Positions 3,495 to 64,000 of a stretch of 64,000 nt of DNA are shown here, in pieces. The translations under genes and the position numbers were made by a program. The notes under the pieces are model-generated. The model saw nothing but the letters and a program-made list of their open reading frames with translations. It was not told the DNA's origin and searched no databases. The DNA is from Clitopilus passeckerianus (Eukaryota; Basidiomycota; Agaricomycetes; Agaricales; Entolomataceae), in assembly GCA_944990035.1 (NCBI GenBank), contig CALYLX010000059.1, forward strand, positions 310,001 through 374,000, read 5' to 3'. Positions within the stretch are counted from its first letter, which is position 1, and each line of letters starts with the position of its first letter.

Positions 3495-6400
3495 TCAAGG
3501 AAGGACAATCCGCGATATATCAAGTAGAAGGACACGGCCATCCTTGCAACCGACTGCGATAGATGAGCCGGTGGGGTCTACTGAGAACTTCTTGACGTGG
3601 ATGTGGGGAGGAAACCAACAGAACGGGACCATAACAGGCTCTCCTTCTACTGGTACGTTGAGGTATACAAGGCCTGATAGGGGAGGGTTTTGTCGCCCAC
3701 CAAGTGCGATGATGCGTAAGGGATAATCAGACATGGCTGGATGGGTGAAAAGAGGGTCGGTGACATCATTGGTAGTAGGAATGGGAGGCGAGAATGTGGA
3801 GTGCGAGGCGCTTGGGAGGAATGTGAAAGATGCCATGTATTCAAAATGTTTCCCGAGAGAGATTGGGCGAATGTTGTCGATTGTCCGTAGGTAGAGGGTA
3901 GCATTATTGTTGATGACGTCACCATAGTAATTATAATCTCTTGCCATCGATGCAAATGTTGAGCCACTGGGGGAGAATGCGATGGCACCCATTTCACTAT
4001 TTGGGTTGATAGTGCTGAGATGACATCCAGACCGTCCGTCCCATACCTGGAATGTGTGATCTTCTGATGCTGATAGGAGTCTTAAGCCATCAGGAGAGAA
4101 TGCAATGGCGCGGATATCGTGTGAATGACCGTGGAGGGTTGTGATATGAGTCCCCGTCTTTCCGTCCCATAACCAGATGGTCTTATCGTCAGATCCTGAG
4201 GCGAGCTTTGAGCCATCGGGAGAGAATGCAATGGATATGATCCAATCTAAGTGACCATCAAGAGTACAAATATGGACACCTGTTTTTTCATCCCATAACC
4301 GGATAGTGTTATCATAGGATCCTGAGGCAAGCCTTGAGCCATCAGGGGAGAATGCAACGGCTGTAACCCTACTGGAATGACCGTTGAGGGTGCTAATATG
4401 GGCCCCTGTCTTTCCATCCCACAGTTGGAGGGTGCTATCTTGACCTGACACAAACCTTGAGCCGCTGGGTGAGTGCGCCATAGCTGTGACTTCACCGGAA
4501 TGGGTATGAATGGCAGAAAGTTTGGGGGTGTCTGGCTTTCCGTTCTGTAAATATATGGGATGATTCAGAGGGGAATATCTGATGCTTACAGGATCTGAAG
4601 ACAGGCCGTCATCTACAGAATGGCCTTTGAGAGAGCCCGCCTTTATGTCCCAGAGGCGGACTGTGCAATCGCCGGATGCTGAAGCAAGTCTTGATCCATC
4701 GGGGGAGAATGCGACACCTAAGAAAGAGCCGGAGTGGCCGTTGAAAGTGATGATAGGAGAGCCTGTTGTCGCATCCCACAGGCGGACTGTGCCATCTCCG
4801 GAGCCCGAGGCAAGCCTCAATCCATCGGGGGAGAACACTACAGAATACACAGCGTAGGAATGGCCTTCGAGAGAGAGTATATGAGCACCGGTTGTTGCTT
4901 CCCACAGACGGATGGTGTCATCGTCAGACGCCGATGCAAGTCTCAACCCATTGGGGGAGAATGCCACAGAGTTAATTTCATCAGAATGGCCTTCGAATGT
5001 GGTTATATGAGCATTGGTTTGTCCATCCCACAGATCAACAGTGTGATCTTTGGATGCAGATGCAAGTCTCAACCCATCAGGGGAGAATGTGACCGAGTAA
5101 ACCGAACCGGAATGGCCCTTGATAGTGATAAGATGGGCACCCGTTTCTCCATCCCATAGACAGATTGACGCGTCAATGGACCCGGATGCGAGCCTCGCAC
5201 CGTCAGGAGAGAATGCAACAGATGTGACCCAGTTAGAATGGCCTTGTAGAGCGATGAGACGGGCACCCGTTGTTACATCCCACAGACAAATTGTTCGATC
5301 GTTGGATGCAGAGGCAAGTCTTGCTCCATCGGGAGAGAACACCACGGACATGACCCAATTGGAATGGCCTTCAATAGTGGAGAGGTGAGCACCTGTATTT
5401 CCATCCCACAGGCGGATCGTCCTGTCATCGGATGCTGATGCGAGTGTTTTCCCATTGGGAGAGAAAGCAACTGCCCTGACATCATCTGAATGGCCTGTCA
5501 TGGTGACCAGTGCGGCGGGATCCCATTCACCCTCAATTCCGCTGATAACACTCAGACTTGTTGCTTCTCCATAGGTCCTATACAGCAGTGTGTTTCGAGG
5601 TATGAATGGGAGCGCTGACCAATATATATGCATTGGTGTCAAAGCCACAACCTCACCACTCTGAAGGAGGAACCGACGGGTGTCAGACACCAGTGCGTGA
5701 ACTCTGTTTCTCTCCGTCCAGCTGTGAGGGTGAGCATTCTATAATCATGCTAATTAGCAACTGGGAACACCGAAGCGCCGCCGAGATCTACTCACAATTG
5801 CATCCAGCGCCAGATCCAACATGTCGTGTGCACGCCTGATTTGGCCAAGAATGTTCATGACCTCAAGCCATGCCATAATATGAGTAAATGCCCACTCCTC
5901 AAACAAGCCCTGAAGCTCGTTGTCGAGCTCTCCGGTGGCATGAAGGTGGGAAGCCCAATGAGAAGCAGCATAGGCGAGCTCTTCTTTGAAGGACCTATCT
6001 TGCAGGCTGACAATGTCTGCCTTATCCAAGAACCATGCTTCGGGGGGAATATTCCCAATGTTGAATTTCAATTCCTCATCCATTACACGGAAGCACGCCG
6101 CTGCGAGTTGCTGATGATGCGTTCTTGTATCAATTTGGAGCTTTTGACCAGTGTTCGGCGGGATCTTGGGTAATTCTTTCATAGTGCGTTCGATACGGTT
6201 TGCATTCGTGATGAAGTCGGGGAAGGATTTATGATGTACACGGAATATCATACTTGGACCACTCGGCGCAACAAGGGAATGTAAGTGTAGGAGGCTCTCC
6301 ATGATATCGGCCGAGTCCATCCCAAGTAGCTGAGCCAATGCTTGACAAGGGAGAGGGTTCTGCAGAATGATGATTGCGCCGATGACGGTTCTATACCGAT

Positions 6401-13346: not shown

Positions 13347-16300
13347 TCAAGGGGGGGAAATACCTGATATATCAAGGAGAACGACACGGCCATCCTCACA
13401 GCCGACTGCAATTGACGAGCCAGTAGGCTCCACTGAGAGACTCGTGATGTTGAAGTGGGGAGGAAACCAGCAGAATGGAACCATAACAGGCTCGCCATCT
13501 GTCGGTACACTGAGATATACGAGGCCCAATAGGGAAGGGTTTCTTCGTTCGCCTAGGACGATAATACGCAATGGATAATCAGATGTGACTGGGTGGGTGA
13601 AAAGAGATGCAGTGGCATCATTGGTGGCAATAGTGGGCGAGGTTGTTGAGTGTTGGGTGGTCAAGAGGAAGGTGAAAGATTTGATGGATCCGAAATGTTT
13701 CCGGAGAGAGATTAGGCGAATGTTGTTGTTGATCGTCCGCAGATAGAGGGTATCATTACTGGCAATGACATCATTATAATATGCTTCCATCGATGCAAGT
13801 GTTGAGCCACCGGGGGACAATGCGATGGCGCCCATTTTACTATCTGAGTTGATAGTGCCAATATGAGACCCAGATCGTCCATCCCATACCCGGAATGTGT
13901 TGTCATCCGAGGCTGACACCAGCCTTGAGCCGTCAGGAGAGAACGCAACAGCATTAACATCGTCTGAATGGCCTCTAAGGGTTGCGATATGCACCCCCGT
14001 CTTTCCGTCCCACAACCTAATGGTCTTATCAACGGATCCTGAGGCGAACTTTGAGCCGTCGGGAGAGAATGCAATGGCCCAGACCCAATCAGAGTGGCCA
14101 ATCAGAGTGCAAATATGGTCGCCTGTCTTTGCGTCCCACAGCCGGATGGACAGATCGTCAGACCCTGAAGCAAGCCTTGATCCGTCAGGCGAGAACGCAA
14201 CGGCTCTGACCCAGTCAGAATGCCCATGGAGGGTGGTGATGTGCGCCCCTGTTGTTCCACCCCATAGGCGAAGGGTGTTGTCGTGTGATGCTGATGCAAA
14301 CTTTGATCCATCAGGTGAGTGAGCCATCGCTTCTACCGGTTTAGAATGGCTATGAATGGCATCAAGACCACTGGAAGTGGTATCTGGCTTTCCATTCTGT
14401 GAACAGGACATATGGTTTGAAGAAGCGTGTGTAACGCTTGCAGCATCTGATAGTAGCCTAGTATCCCCAGAATGGCCTTTGGGAGTGTCCGTCTTTACGG
14501 CCCAAAGGCGGATTGTGCAATCACGGGATGCTGATGCAAGTCTCCATCCATCAGAGGAGAATGAGACACCAAAGACAGAGCTGGAATGGCCATTGAAAGT
14601 GGTGATAGGAGCACCCGTTGTTGCATCCCTCAAACGCACTTTGTTATCTCCAAATCCTGAGGCAAGCCCCAGTCCGTTGGGGGAGAATACCACAGAAAAC
14701 ATGGTATTGGAATGGCAGTCAAGGGATATTATATGAGCACCCGTTGTTGCTTCCCACAGACGAATCGTGTGATCGTCAGACGCCGATGCAAGCCTCGACC
14801 CTTCGGGGGAGAATGCAACAGCCTCAACCCTATCGGAATGACCATGAAGGGTGATGAGGTGAGCACTGGTCTGTACATCCCACAGGCGTGCTGTGTGATC
14901 GTCAGATGCAGATGCAAGTCTCAAGCCATTGGGGGAGAATGTAACAGAGTTGACTGGACCGGAATGACCTTCAAGTTTAACAGCGATGAGACGGGCGCCT
15001 GTTTCTTCATCCCATAGATGGATTGACGTGTCACTGGACCCGAATGCGAGCCTCGAGCCGTCCGGAGAGAAGGCAACAGATCTAACCACGTTGGAATGGC
15101 CGTCGAGAGTGACGAGTTGGGCACCTGTTGTTACATCCCACAGTCGGATTGTGTCGTCAAGAGATGCTGACGCAAGTCTCGCACCATCGGGAGAGAACAT
15201 GACAGACATAACCGGACTGGAATGGCCTTCGAGAGTGACAAGATGAGCACCCGAATTTCCATCCCACAGGCGAATTGTGCAGTCAGCGGATGCTGACGCA
15301 AGTATTTTCCCGTTGGGAGAGAAAGCGACCGCATAGACAGAACGTGAATGGCCTGTCATTGTGACCAGTGCGGTGGGATCCCATTCCTCCTCAACCCCAC
15401 TGACAATGCTCAGACCCCGTGCTTCTCCATAGGTCCTGTACAGAAGAGTGTTTCGAGGGACGAATGGTAGCGCTGATCGATAGATGTGCATCGGCGTCAG
15501 CTTCACCACTTCACTGCTCTGCAGCAGGAATCGACGGGCATCAGATATCATTCTGCAAACTTGGTCTTGCCCTGACCAGCTTTGATTCGGCCCGTCCTGA
15601 GTTCTTCCTCATCAGCAACATATCACAGTACAAGTTATTGCTCCGCCAGACAATGTATCATACTCACAATCGCAACCAGCGCCATATCCAACATATCGTG
15701 CGCACGCTCAATTTGGTCAAGAATGCTCATCACTTCGAGCCATGCCATGATGTGGGTACATGCCCATCTCCGAATATCCTGTTGAAGCCCGTCGTCGAGA
15801 TCTCCAGCTGCTTGTGTATGTGAAGCCCAATGAAGAGCCGCGTAAGTGAGCTCCTCTCTGAAGGATTGGTATCGCAAGCCGACGATATCGTCCTTATTCA
15901 AGAACCATGATTCGGGAGAAATATCCCCGATATTGAATTTCAAGTTCTCGTCCATTACACGGAAGCACGCCGCTGCAAGTTGATGATGATGAATTGTTGT
16001 ATCAATTAAGAATTTCGGAGTCGGGTTGAAGGAGATCGTCGAGAATTTGGCCAAAGCACGTTCGATACGATCTGGATCCATTATAAAATCAGGAAATGAT
16101 TTGTGATGTATTCGATAGATTAACTTTGAGCCACTTGGGGCGACTAGAGAATGCAGATGGAGCAAGGTAGATTCAATATCGCTGACATCTATGCTCAGTA
16201 GTGTTGCTAGAGCTTGAGCTGGGAGAGGATTTTGAAGAGCAACGATTGCACCAACTATAAGTTGATACAGATTAAACCATTCCTCAGCTTCGTGTGGGAG

Positions 16301-23682: not shown

Positions 23683-26600
23683 TCAGATAGGCCCGATGGG
23701 AGTTGTTTCAAGGAACTCCCCCGATATGTCTAGAATAAGGACACGGCCATCGTTGCAGCCGACCGCGATGGATGAACCCGTAACGTCTATTGAAAATGCG
23801 GTGACATCGAAGTGAGGCGGGAACCAGCAGAATGGAACCATAACAGGCTCCCCGTCTGCCGGTATATTGAGATATACGAGGCCTGATAGGGAAGGATTTT
23901 CTCGTTTGCCTAGTGCGAAGATCCGTAAAGGATATTCGGATGTGACTGAGTGGGTGAAAAGGCAGTCGGTTACATCACTGGAGGCGGTAATGGTGGGAGA
24001 GGATGTTGAGTGCTGGACGCTCGAGAGGAATGCAAAAGATCTGATGGATTGGAGATGTTTCCTGAAAGAAATAGGGCGAACGTTGTTGGTCGTCCGCAGA
24101 TACAGAGTATTGTTCGCACCCATCAAGTACTTTGACTCGATGTACGCAAATACGGAACTAGCGGGGGAGAATCTGACGGGACCCATTGACCTCTCCGAGT
24201 CAATGGTGCTGATATGAGTCCCAGAACCCCCATCCCATACCTGGAATGTACAATCACGCGATGCTGATACAAGCCTTGAACCATCGGAAGAGAACGCAAT
24301 GGCACGAATATAGCCCGAATGACCGTTGAGGGTAGTGATATGAGCCCCCGTCTTTCCGTCCCACAATCGGATGGTGTGATCATCGGATCCTGAGGCAAGA
24401 TTTGAGCCGCGGGGAGAAAATACAACAGCCATGACCCGTGCTGAGTGGCCATTCAGAGTACAAATGAAGTCACCTGTCTTTCCGTCCCACAAGCAGATGG
24501 TGCCATCTTCGGTTCCTGAGGCAAGCCTTGAGCCATCGGCGGAGAACGCAACTGTCCTGGCCGCGCTGGAATGACCTTTGAGGCAAATGATATGGGCCCC
24601 TGTCTTTCCATCCCACAGTCGGATGGTTCTGTCATGAGATGCCGATGCAACCCTTGAACTATCGGATGAATATGCCATGGCTTCGATTGGCTTAGAATGG
24701 GTGGGGGTGGTATCAAGACCGGGAAAATCTGACTTCACATCCTCGGAATGGCCTTTAAAAGTGTCCGTCTTCACGTCCCAGAGGCGGAGGGTATAGTCGC
24801 CGGATGCTGATGCAAGTCTCGAGCCATCAGGGGAGAATGCGACGGCAAGGACAGAATTAGAATGTCCATTGAAGGTAATGATAGGAACGCCGGTTGCTGC
24901 ATCCCACAAACGGACTGTGCCGTCTATGGATGCTGAGGCAAGTCTCAATCCATCGGGAGAGAATGCCACAGACCATACCTTATCAGAATGGCCTTTGAAA
25001 GTGAGTATATGAGCACCCGTTTTTCCTTCCCACAGACGGATCGTGCAATCATTGGAGGCCGATGCAAGCCTTAGCCCGTTGGGGGAAAATGCAACGGAGT
25101 TAACCTCATCAGAATGACCTTTGAGAGTGATGAAATGAGCACCGGTCCGTCCATTCCACAGGCGTACTGTGTGATCTTTAGATGCAGATGCAAGTCTCAG
25201 GCTATCGGGGGAGAATGTGACACGGAGAACTGGACCGGAATGGCCTTCCATGGTAATGAGATGGGCACCAGTTGCTCTATCCCAGAGACGGATTGTCTGG
25301 TCGTGGGATCCAGACGCAAGTCTCGAACCGTCAGGAGAGAATGTAACGGCCATGACGCCGCCGGAATGGCCTTCCAGACTAGTGAGATGGGCACCCGTTG
25401 TCGCATCCCATAGACGAATTTGGTGATCGCCAGCTGCTGACGCAACTCTCAACCCATCAGGGGAGAATGCAACGTCGTTAATGTCACTGACATGGCCTTC
25501 AAGACTGATGAGATGAGCACCCGTGCTTCCATCCCACAGACGGACTGTAGTGTCTCCAGATCCTGATGCAAGTAATTTCCCGTTGGGAGAGAAAGCAACT
25601 GCAAAGATCCAGTATGAATGGCCTGCCATGGTGACCAATGCAGTGGTATCCCATGTGCCTTCAATTCCGCTCAGAAGGCCAAGGCTTGTTGCCCCTCCGT
25701 AGGTCTCGTACAGAGGAGTGTTTCGAGGGATGAATGGTAGCGCTGATCGGTAAATATGGTTCGGCGTCAGCTTCACCACTTCACTGCTTTGCAGTAGGAA
25801 TCGACGGGCGTCAGACATCAGTCTGCGAACATGGTCTTGTCCTGACCAGCTTTGATTCTGTGCATCCTGAGTTTCTCCCCATTAGCAACAAGCCAAAGCA
25901 CAAGCCATGTTACCAGCCAAATAGCTTACTCACAATCACAATCAGAATCGTATCCAACATATCGTGCGCACGCTTGATTTGGCCAAGAATGCTCATGACC
26001 TCAAGCCATGCCATGATATGGGTACATGCTCATTTCCCAATATCCTGTTGAAGCCCGGTGTCGAGCTCCCCAGCTGCGTGAATATGTGAAGCCCAATGAG
26101 AAGCCGCATAAATGAGCTCTTCTCCGAAGGGCGGATCTCGTATGCAGGGAATGTCCGCCTTATCCAAGAACCATACTTCGGGAGAAATATTCCCAATGTT
26201 GAATTTCAAGTTCTCGTCCATTATATGAAAGCAAGCCACTGCGAGTTGGTGATGATGCTTTTTTGGATCGATCAAGAAATTAGGAGCAAGGTTTGACGCA
26301 TTGGTCGAGGTTTTGGCCAGAGCACGTTCGATGCGGCCTGCATTTGTGATGAAGTCGGGAAAGGATTTGTGATGTACACGGAATATTACATCTGGACCAC
26401 TTGGTGCAACGAGCGAATGTAGGTGAAACAGGCCCTTCGTGATGTCACTTCGGCGTAGGTTGAGTAGCTGCGCTAAAACGGCGCAAGGCAGGGGGTTCTG
26501 CAGGGCGATAATAGCACCCATAATTGTTTGGTAGCGGTCAAACCACCTATCAGCTTCATTTGCACCATCAGGAACAGCGTTGTAAATTATGCGGATGTAG

Positions 26601-28209
26601 AACGTATCCATGACGTCCGTTTGTCTGGAGCCAGAGTAATCCTCAGGGGATACGCCTTCAAGGAGGCACGAGAGGCGACCTCCTGGGTCGGCCGCTTTTG
26701 TGTCCAGGATGAATTTTGTGGCTGTCGAGGCGATGATGAACAGCTTTCCGCAGATACCGCATAACATCGACGCCTCTGAGGCACTGGGTTGCCACGGAGG
26801 TTCATCGTCCGGAAAGATATCTTGGACCCTTTCAACTGAGAGGGAGTGTTTGAGATAGAGTTCTATGTCGGCTTGTACGATCTGGTCGTCAATCTCGTGC
26901 AAGTGGAAGAGGTCATGGTTGTTGTCTTTATTCAAGATCCGTCGAAGATGCTGCTCCGGACGGGTCGTCACGAAGAGTCGGAGTCGAGGTAGTCGGGGAA
27001 TATGGTGGGCGAGGAGCGTCAAGAGGGTTTCGGCCTCGTCTTCCTTGCATTCGTCCAGCGCATCAATGACAATGAGGATCGGCGGTCCATTGTCAGCCAG
27101 TAGATCCTGAAGAGGGCTGAGAATAAGGAGGGAGAGCTGTTGTTGAATGGTTTTTTGCGGCGCTCCTGGATCGCTCTCGAGGGCTTCAGCAATCCGTCGA
27201 GCAAATGCCTCGTTGTAGCAGGCTAGCTGAAACGCGATTGTGGGGAAGAAGTGTTTTGCGATCATCCGGTCCACTTCATTGCGTGTGAAGTAGAAGCTTG
27301 CCCCAAGAATTCCGGCTTTAGCAGCTCGCTCAGCGACTGTCTGCGCAATGGTCGACTTTCCGATACCAGCGACCCCGTCAAGCACAAATATTGGTGCTTG
27401 GCCGTCGTCCCCTCTATACCATGATTCGATGTTGTCTAATAATTGTTGGCGAGTGTTTTCGAAGCACTTGGATCGTTGGTCGGCTTCGTATGAGTCCCAT
27501 GCAGCATTTACTGGATTGAGGATGGTTTTCAGTTTCTGGAGCTAATGTGAGGTCGGTAAGATGTCGTACGTGTAGAACCTGTACTACTTACCCGTGTCGT
27601 TGTGTCCTTAATGACTTCCAGACTTCCAACGACATTATAGATGTTGTTGTCCCTCACCGCACTTATATGACTGTCCGACATAGACCAAACAATTTGTGAA
27701 GCAGCCGTGGGAGGAGATATGAATTCTTGAGAGCCTATGAAAGGAATCCCTTGCCTTGATGGTCCCAAAGACGTATGGCTTCCCGGGGCGGCGGCTTCGT
27801 TATTGTTTCCCGGTAGATCGCCCTCATTTTGAGCCCTATCAGAAGCCTCAGTGAATCGATCTTCGGTGTAACTGCCCACAGTTGCTAGTGCATGGTGGTC
27901 GATGGGCTGCTGCAAGGGACCCCGGATGACGATGGTTGCCGGTACGGCCGGCTCCTCCGGTTTGGTGGTGTTCAATAGTCGAGATTCTGTCGTGTCCTGA
28001 TGTTCGATGATATCTGCGGCTGAGTCGCCTTTCATAATCGACTGGATCCTTGGATTCGTTGGTGGAAGAGGCGATATAGAGCGATGAGCCGGACTCTGTG
28101 CTCTGGTCGAGGATGGTGTAGTAGTAGTCGTGCTAGTGAAAGGTATGGAAGCGCCACTATTGGGGCTACTCTTCTCCTTCTTTTTGAAAGGAGAGAAAAG
28201 CTTGCGCAT
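23683..28209 (-). CDS. NLR-like NACHT-WD40 protein, copy 3 (in-frame TGA)
   Basis: Exons 28209-27592, 27541-25934 and 25866-23683 (introns 50 and 67 nt). Read through, they would code for 1469 residues. The 206-residue N-terminal exon resembles copy 1 and ends with NIYNVVGSLEV. The P-loop GVAGIGKST is at 262-270. A TGA at 26032-26030 (codon 710) replaces the Trp codon found in copies 1 and 2 (RRWACTHIM, EEWAFTHIM), so the frame stops after NACHT and the helical region. Downstream, splice sites and the frame with eleven canonical WD40 repeats remain open to 23683. The locus may therefore be a recent pseudogene, make a NACHT-only protein, or yield a separate WD40 protein. A sequencing error at one base would also explain it. 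Confidence 0.82.
26030..26032 (-). other. In-frame TGA splitting NACHT from WD40 in NLR3
   Basis: The minus-strand codons around this point read GAT ATT GGG AAA TGA GCA TGT, where NLR2 has GAT ATT CGG AGA TGG GCA TGT. It is the only interruption found in the three spliced exons of NLR3. The next base after TGA is G, which does not match the well-known TGA-CTA readthrough context. Confidence 0.85.
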
Positions 28210-51270: not shown

Positions 51271-53017
51271 TGATCGATGATCGAGCCAAGGTGGATACCT
51301 CCGTCCCTTCCCTCCGTCCACCCCCAACTTCGTTTCTTCTGGTTCGTGTGTCTCCCATCTGTCTTCTGAGCACCCGAAAGCTTGCCGACATCGTTTCCAG
51401 GGATGTGTAGTCTGAAGTAGAGCAGGAACTCGAGACCTTCAACAGACGTTCTTCAAGCGGGTTCTACGATCCCCAGAATTCCATCATGCTGTCTCCGAAT
51501 CGACGCACGCTGGTATATCCGACCTGTATACTCGCCAGGCTTCAATGATAGGGATTCGTCTCCATACCCGAATACCCTCCTAACGTGCGCTCTGTTCGGT
51601 CGTCGACGCTGGTCCCTCAATGTCCTACGAAGTTCTTGGATATCCATGATATGATAGCTGCCTAGGTCGGTCAACTTTCTGTCCATTCCTTTCCCATGCT
51701 GATATACTGCATGTATGGATTAGAACATCGTCAAACCCGGTCTATGGCCTTGTCGCCTACCGTCACTCAGGCAAGAAGAATGCCGCCGTTATTCTTGATG
51801 GTCGAGGCATCAAACACGAGCACGAAGTTCTCCCAATTGCCGGCGACGAACAGTCAGGTCAACTTCTGGGTCGAGATTCAGCACTACGCCTCCAGCCACC
51901 CAGCTCTCCATCTTTCCCTACTCTTACTTCAGGAAGGCTCATAGGCTCGCCACTGTTATCTACAACGATCTGCCTTGTTGCCGCATTGGCAACCCCACGG
52001 TCCACTCAACTGAGTCAAGCTTTCGCTCTTGATGGGACGAATCCATCCCACCAAGCTCACTGGTTTGCGACTTAGCGATTTCTGTCTTCAACAATAGATG
52101 CCCAGCGATCCCCCATGTTCCCTGAGCTAGTGGATTGCTTACCGCTTGCTGGTGGCGATACTTGACCCTAAGTTGCCATTTTCGGCCCCTTCGATCGTCC
52201 GCGTCTACTCTCCTTATCTAGCTAACCTTGACCCCTTTTGTCTAGAAATTGCCGCAGGCACTTGCTGGAAGTTACTTGTGATTGGTATGATCATAACCAT
52301 TGATAAGGGAATTTGGGAGGGTTTTCCGTTGTGAAAGCGACGGATCGTATTCTCACGGTCGTCGAACCAATATGTTCGAAGGACACTTTCTCCCGCAGGA
52401 AATCTTGGCACCTACGTGACGTGATACAGTCATTTTATCATTCTCAATTTCGATATACAAGCTCTGTTGATCTCGTATCTAGAGAGCAGATACTTAAGCT
52501 GCGAGTTGGTATTTTTTTGTATGAAACTTCGAACCAATCGAAGTTGCCTTGCCACTATTCGACTCCCAACATCTTCATGGTTCGAAGCACCTACTATTTC
52601 AAATGGATTTCGGGTGGCTCTTATCGTTCAATGGACTTCTACATGTGTGCGTATCTTCTAGGAATTAGTGCACGTTCACAAAACATATGTCTTTTTCTCT
52701 AGTCAATAAACATTCCTGTCATGCAGCTGCCGTATATCTTCGCCTGCCAAACTTTTTTGGCGAGGCTTGCCTCCGTCACCAGCTACCCAGCCCCATACTC
52801 CACTTACTAATTTGTTTACCTCTGAGCCAACCTAATGAGGTCTTACCGCGAGCTGTTCGTTTTTTTTTTTTTGGCTCTAGCCAACCTAATGAGGTCTTAC
52901 CGCGAGCTGTTCGTTTTTTTTTTTTGGCTCTAGTCACCCTACTTTCACAGGTGGATTCAGTCCATCAAGAAGAACTGGGCTTATTCTACATACTAAAACG
53001 ATAAAAGTGGAATCTAG
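51271..53017. other. Mixed intergenic stretch with an unidentified gene remnant
   Basis: A plus-strand frame from about 51690 to 52170 reads coherently (VYGLVAYRHSGKK, NAAVILDGRGI, LPIAGDEQSGQLLGRDS) but is cut by stops near 52070 and 52165 and has no clear start or splice continuation. I do not recognise it. Further right nothing is seen except a tandem duplication at 52827-52933. Confidence 0.35.
52827..52933. repeat. Tandem duplication of a 54-bp segment ending in poly-T
   Basis: Two copies (52827-52880 and 52881-52933) start CCAACCTAATGAGGTCTTAC and end in a run of 13 or 12 T followed by GGCTCTAG. They differ only in T-run length, so the duplication is recent. Confidence 0.9.
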
Positions 53018-63537: not shown

Positions 63538-64000
63538 ATGAAGCTCTCCGTCGTCCTGTTGGCTACTTTGACTGCCTACATCGCTCAAGCTGCGCCTTCG
63601 CCTGGAAAGGCTCAGGTATGTCGCATCAAACAGCAGAATATGGTGCACCACTGACAATTTTACCAGGTCAGCCCTGTTGGTACGACCGCCGCCAACGTAG
63701 GTTCCTACGTCTCTGGAGAGAAGAAACGCGAGGAGAATGCCGAGGATATCTTCTTCTACAACTGGGGTAAACAAGTGAACAAGCAGGCACCGGAGGAACA
63801 CGCCGAAGATATATTCTTCTACGATTGGGGCGAGCAAGTAGGGAAGCGGGCACCAAAGGAGCATGCCGAGGACATTTTCTTCTACAACTGGGGCGAGCAG
63901 GTCGGGAAGCGCGCTCCTGAAGAACACTCTGAAGATATCTTCTTCTATAATTGGGGCGAGGAGGCCGCCGCTGAGAAGCGTGCTCCAGCAGAACACGCCG
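63538..64000 (+). CDS. Secreted Kex2-processed repeat protein, peptide precursor (partial)
   Basis: Exon 1 is 63538-63615, then a 51-nt intron (GTATGT..CCAG), and exon 2 from 63667 runs off the window; 137 residues are visible. A signal peptide (MKLSVVLLATLTAYIAQA) and a short spacer are followed by KKR (45-47). Then come four complete repeats of 19-23 residues built on EDIFFYNWG (once FFYDWG), separated by basic sites: KQ at 65-66, then KR at 86-87, 107-108 and 130-131. A fifth repeat begins at the edge. After each KR comes Ala-Pro, as if for dipeptide trimming. This is the layout of fungal Kex2-processed repeat proteins, which include the precursors of ustiloxin-type cyclic RiPPs and Ustilago Rep1. 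Core Tyr, Trp and Phe residues would suit cross-linking, but no tailoring enzyme is visible in the window. A signalling or surface role is also possible. Confidence 0.85.
63730..64000 (+). repeat. In-gene 63-bp tandem repeat coding for peptide cores
   Basis: Units: 63730-63786 (57 bp), 63787-63849 (63), 63850-63912 (63), 63913-63981 (69), then a partial unit. The protein core EDIFFYNWG is almost invariant while third codon positions vary (for example GATATCTTCTTC, GATATATTCTTC, GACATTTTCTTC), indicating selection on the peptide rather than very recent DNA duplication. Confidence 0.9.

Follow-up and report, generated by a model that had tools for sequence, protein, structure and literature searches.

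A putative secreted multi-copy peptide precursor in Clitopilus passeckerianus, with a constrained aromatic core and UstYa genes beside two of its paralogues

A repeat-precursor gene lies at the right edge of the window, the whole 64,000-nucleotide stretch analysed here (C59:310001-374000). From its anatomy, it very probably encodes a secreted multi-copy precursor, of the KEX2-processed repeat protein (KEP) kind, that yields short peptides. The repeated aromatic core of these predicted peptides is far more constrained than the residues around it, and two paralogues elsewhere in the genome, one of them with the same core, have UstYa genes as close neighbours. On these grounds our best reading, put forward tentatively and at slightly less than an even chance, is a secreted multi-copy precursor whose peptides are possibly cross-linked in trans by the UstYa proteins encoded beside its paralogue.

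The gene model begins with an ATG at 63538 and joins a signal-like exon to a repeat exon across an intron of 51 bases. It carries five units of the EHAEDIFFYNWGEQVG type, four of which have their cores complete within the window. The stop codon falls 50 bases beyond the window, giving 513 bp from ATG to stop and 153 residues; in the translation, read by eye, the N-terminal MKLSVVLLATLTAYIAQA is followed by AP, and the precursor ends in ...APAEHAEDIFFYNWGEQVERSN before the stop. The features are as follows:

63538..63591, plus strand: signal-like segment MKLSVVLLATLTAYIAQA, typical in look, read by eye from the translation
63538..63615, plus strand: exon 1 of the splice model; the C139 allele has the same GTATGT..CAG intron
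63616..63666, plus strand: intron GTATGT..CAG of 51 bases in the splice model; the repeats stay open under other splice choices too
63667..64000, and 50 bases beyond the window, plus strand: exon 2 of the splice model, with the repeat units
63724..63729, plus strand: KR (of KKR) ahead of unit 1, where the C139 allele reads KIR; from sequence
63742..63768, plus strand: unit 1 core EDIFFYNWG; from sequence
63781..63786, plus strand: KQ (reading NKQ) between units 1 and 2, where a dibasic site is lacking; from sequence
63805..63831, plus strand: unit 2 core EDIFFYDWG; from sequence
63844..63849, plus strand: KR at the unit 2-3 boundary; from sequence
63868..63894, plus strand: unit 3 core EDIFFYNWG; from sequence
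63907..63912, plus strand: KR at the unit 3-4 boundary; from sequence
63931..63957, plus strand: unit 4 core EDIFFYNWG; from sequence
63976..63981, plus strand: KR between units 4 and 5, with the unit 5 core starting at base 64000; from sequence

Tandem Repeats Finder recovered the array twice, at 63739-63960 (period 63, score 241) and at 63731-63960 (period 126, score 313), and a Pfam search of the precursor gave three matches, every one under the cut-off. The sequence-only reading had proposed a secreted Kex2-type precursor, with a signal peptide followed by near-identical repeats separated by KR, each restarting with Ala-Pro. The signal-like exon, the five units and the KR boundaries bear out the general design of such a putative precursor. 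In its particulars, KR is present at three of the four unit boundaries and replaced by NKQ between units 1 and 2, and Ala-Pro opens units 2-5 only, unit 1 beginning with EEN. Because their boundary reads NKQ, units 1 and 2 would remain joined.

From this layout we infer a course of processing. The signal peptide would direct the precursor into the secretory pathway, where a Kex2 protease would cut after KR, a Kex1-type carboxypeptidase would trim the KR off, and a Ste13-type dipeptidyl peptidase might remove Ala-Pro. The released products would be peptides of about 17-22 residues around the core EDIFFYNWG, together with one joined two-unit form (units 1-2). Side chains of the aromatic core may be cross-linked in trans, before or during cutting, by UstYa-family oxidases encoded on the paralogue's contig. 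Candidates for the proteases, by domain only, are two P_proprotein (Kex2-like) matches, both on C125, and 11 DPPIV_N (Ste13-like) matches on C115, C114 and C8. The computed linear mass of APKEHAEDIFFYNWGEQVG is 2236.0225 Da, or 2067.9326 Da without Ala-Pro, and each cross-link would lower it by 2.0157 Da.

Elsewhere in the window, 126-base tandem repeats occupy three stretches (4156-5160, 13999-15354, 24317-25571 and 26033-27541). An ORF beside the last of them matches NACHT (46.7 bits) and NPHP3_N (90 bits), and by eye the region looks like a cluster of NACHT-WD40-type genes. A 54-base tandem repeat of 2.3 copies, with 94% matches, lies at 52820-52941. Just right of the precursor, at 374.3-376.1 kb of C59, is a gene for an AMP-binding enzyme (AMP-binding 44.5 bits, AMP-binding_C 25.7 bits).

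The genome, assembled into 160 contigs that total 64.8 Mb and with an ITS region that looks agaric-like, in keeping with a basidiomycete host, holds close relatives of the gene. Besides the window gene, a DNA search returned its copy on C139, at 92% identity, and another pair, hereafter locus 2, on C142 and on C93, the latter in two rows of the result. C59 and C139 are colinear, at 89-94% across the blocks compared, as are C93 and C142 (about 86-92%), and from this colinearity each pair is read as two haplotypes. The protein search returned 11 matches: the four close genes, the C93 gene in one additional row, and six weaker matches on C82, C83, C142 and C93, those on the last two contigs only at E 0.006-0.007. 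Read on the reverse strand, the weaker matches look like more precursors of the signal-plus-repeat design, and their cores include DIVFTYWG, DIVFSGW and DATFLYHWG. The models of all nine precursors place an intron between the signal exon and the repeats, the exact splice sites being unique only for the window gene and its allele on C139. On C83 the allele of the gene with the DIVFTYWG-type core (about 268 kb), open on C82, is broken by stops within its repeats and was left out of the nine for that reason.

Among the four close precursors (two paralogues in two haplotypes), 19 of 21 units could be counted. The core gave a pN of 0.034 and a pS of 0.836, the flanks a pN of 0.183 and a pS of 0.856; since pS is near saturation, only the ratio of core to flank should be leaned on. 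The counting pattern demanded EDIFFY and so lowered the core figure, the two missed units reading ADIFFYSWG. With pN/pS at about 0.04 in the core and 0.21 in the flanks, core residues hold while codons drift. The 19 units contain 14 distinct core DNA sequences encoding 5 core peptides, which differ at only two positions: one is N, D, S or Q, and at the other R replaces W in one unit. That so many DNA versions encode near-identical peptides appears to be more than chance would give.

Outside this genome, relatives were reached only by a family profile. A single-sequence protein search yielded 402 candidates, none at E <= 1. A profile of seven genome sequences retrieved one protein, from Biscogniauxia mediterranea (Ascomycota, Xylariales; E 3.8e-4), with DIFFYNW and DAVFVNW units and KR. 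Once this protein was included, a second profile added seven more, five of them named (Xylariaceae sp., Hypoxylon rubiginosum, Eutypa lata, Daldinia decipiens and Biscogniauxia marginata); in both profile searches scoring was limited to the 8000 candidates with the most shared words, and lineage was looked up for B. mediterranea and E. lata. Six of the eight proteins (P0001-P0006) have two cores each, one of the D[VI]FFYxW and one of the D[AIL]VFVxW form, with KR after both; P0007 retains the first core with the second changed, and P0008 stops before the second. Cores were scored against eight distinct heptamers from five typed precursors, one of which (C142d), with another spacing, contributed none. 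The best core score was reached by none of 20000 shuffles per protein for P0001-P0006, by 1 for P0007 and by 14 for P0008, which measures strength and is not an unbiased chance, because the proteins had been chosen by similarity. The core type D-x-[FV]-F-x-x-W is thus common to the genome precursors and the Xylariales two-unit precursors, probably through common descent and not convergence. A wider proposal, that D-x-[FV]-F-x-x-W precursors form a Dikarya-wide, UstYa-cross-linked family whose scattered genes share one enzyme set in trans, seems to us rather unlikely.

The conservation of cleavage sites bears on whether the protein is cut at all. According to the sequence-only reading, homologues that keep the repeats and lack KR would count against processing. 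This is seen in part: over the nine precursors the dibasic site is present at 26 of 32 unit boundaries and absent at six (the window gene and the C139 allele read NKQ there, while in one C82 and one C83 precursor every other boundary reads THAK or AHAK), and every precursor keeps at least one such site between units. A repeat protein that stays uncut or is cut in part, acting in the wall or at the surface, for whose function the repeats would count and not the dibasic sites, would fit the retention of cores at the six boundaries that lost the site, and the Ustilago KEP Rep1 gives fibril-forming peptides (PMC9769878). We regard it as improbable: most boundaries keep the site, the Xylariales proteins P0001-P0006 have KR after both cores, and UstYa genes adjoin two of the paralogues.

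Turning to the cross-linked reading, at least 68 fragments matching PF11807 (UstYa/DUF3328, the family of the dikaritin cyclisation enzyme) were found in the genome and sorted into 51 gene-like groups, a grouping in which large introns may split genes; 16 UstYa-like genes have been reported from Pleurotus (PMC8893723). UstYa/DUF3328 proteins had been named beforehand as neighbours to look for beside the window gene. The PF11807 profile and tblastn found none there within about 107 kb in either haplotype, the nearest lying 131446 bp away on C59 and 107125 bp away on C139; the link held only at the level of the genome, through paralogues on other contigs. In tblastn searches with UstYa pieces, the best match to the window, to C59 373-403 kb and to C139 247-287 kb was no better than E 2.0, and none was listed for loci L023-L028. 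PF11807 gave no match on C82 or C83, and UstYa genes are absent nearby at three of the five paralogous loci.

At locus 2, whose precursor has the same core as the window gene, two UstYa genes lie within about 3 kb in both haplotypes, the gap to the nearest being 744-940 bp. On C93 both stand upstream of the precursor, the nearer one divergent, with a third about 11 kb downstream; the order on C142 is the same, and a partial UstYa match immediately follows the precursor. The double HXXHC motif of UstYa proteins (PMC12048977) is readable in all three UstYa genes of this area on C93 and in two of three on C142, where the third reads HQLHG. UstYa 2 scores 50.9 bits against a cut-off of 25, and the first-exon piece of UstYa 1, taken alone, stays below it at 18.6 bits. 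The second UstYa-linked paralogue, a more distant one near 94 kb, has a UstYa gene at 1907 bp (C142) or 1676 bp (C93). Positions that lie as near to UstYa as these two paralogues make up less than 0.4% of the genome, a closeness partly explained by the clustering of UstYa genes on C93 and C142: in a same-contig control, 373 (C142) and 1349 (C93) of 20000 random positions were equally near for locus 2, and 629 (C142) and 1855 (C93) for the 94-kb gene. Tyrosinases, also among the neighbours named beforehand, failed to appear, PF00264 having no match on the window-gene contigs (C59, C139) or on those of the UstYa-linked paralogues (C93, C142).

Several further observations concern these neighbourhoods. 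A UbiA-type prenyltransferase match (74.9 bits) lies at 183.8-184.9 kb of C93, 7-8 kb right of the locus-2 precursor, and Pfam left five of ten neighbouring ORF pieces without a family. The only further KEP from a de novo scan of the examined loci, with a different core (AEADTFLQRGIYWPTKR), is on the minus strand of C26 at about 338.6-338.9 kb with a UstYa gene about 0.8 kb off, a closeness that is no independent test because the locus was picked for its UstYa. Five UstYa groups each occur at C66:1228-1234 kb, C67:370-376 kb and C69:10-16 kb, and a KEP scan of about 1.5 kb on each side of the matches found none.

Modification by UstYa appears somewhat favoured for the locus-2 peptide and, for the window gene's own peptide, a possibility just short of even. 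The nearest competitor, which we consider nearly as likely as cross-linking, is a KEP peptide secreted in linear form: Kex2 and Kex1 would cut it and Ala-Pro might be trimmed off, but no cross-link would be made, the paralogue's UstYa enzymes serving another substrate. The missing UstYa neighbours of the window gene and of three of the five paralogous loci suit a linear peptide, as do the detections made so far in C. cinerea, L. edodes and Pleurotus, where KEP peptides were linear or minimally modified (PMC9769878). A DUF3328 gene was reported near only 103 of 1680 Basidiomycota KEPs, with the suggestion that cyclisation may hardly occur in Basidiomycota or that the enzyme differs (PMC7329392). 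Against it stand the same-core paralogue with its two UstYa genes in both haplotypes, the further paralogue with one within 2 kb, and an aromatic core far more constrained than its flanks, although a receptor ligand would show the same. An alpha-type mating pheromone would share the KR and Ala-Pro of alpha-factor precursors, and basidiomycete KEPs built in this way have been labelled putative pheromones (PMC6339444); we give it very little weight, as basidiomycete mating pheromones are described as prenylated and a-type (PMC9769878) and almost every KEP with a pheromone annotation has no DUF3328 gene nearby (PMC7329392). A genome search for STE2 (PF02116) gave no match and, run without a positive control, shows little.

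With a sister gene beside enzymes of the cross-linking type, the gene is a good lead towards a peptide natural product that would be new but belong to a known general class. UstYa-neighboured KEPs are uncommon in Basidiomycota on the figures of PMC7329392. As a precursor lacking UstYa neighbours shares its core with a UstYa-linked one, judging by neighbourhood alone may give too low a count of modified peptides. Xylariales, with cores of the same type, offer ascomycete genes in which the chemistry could be tested too.

Compared with described systems, the window gene resembles KEPs (PMC6339444, PMC7329392, PMC9769878) in its signal-like segment, near-identical units, dibasic boundaries and STE13-type Ala-Pro after KR in units 2-5. 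It differs in that one of its four boundaries lacks a dibasic site and in its core: EDIFFYNWG does not occur in the covered portions of the text of these papers, nor in those of PMC12048977 and PMC8893723. The core had been thought to match no published one, and this agrees with a string search of the literature, outside which figures and supplements fell: FFYNWG-type strings led to no paper, and the matches listed for shorter core strings were all, judged by title, on unrelated subjects. A survey table may therefore already list this core. With dikaritins (ustiloxin, phomopsin, asperipin-2a) the gene shares the precursor layout and, at two paralogues, UstYa neighbours; ED precedes the aromatic core here as in the EDYXI of ustiloxin and phomopsin repeats (PMC6339444). 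In contrast to dikaritins, the window gene has no adjoining UstYa gene and the relevant contigs have no match to tyrosinase, an enzyme of the ustiloxin and phomopsin clusters; on the neighbour criterion it is not classed as a dikaritin. We propose it as a new KEP member with dikaritin-like neighbours at two paralogues, and dikaritin-type chemistry of its own would be a hypothesis. The Xylariales proteins P0001-P0006, hypothetical proteins in the database, resemble it in their cores, their KR sites and a signal-like segment ending in AAP (TAP in one), but have two units only, a length of 82-118 aa, and Val-Pro ahead of the first core.
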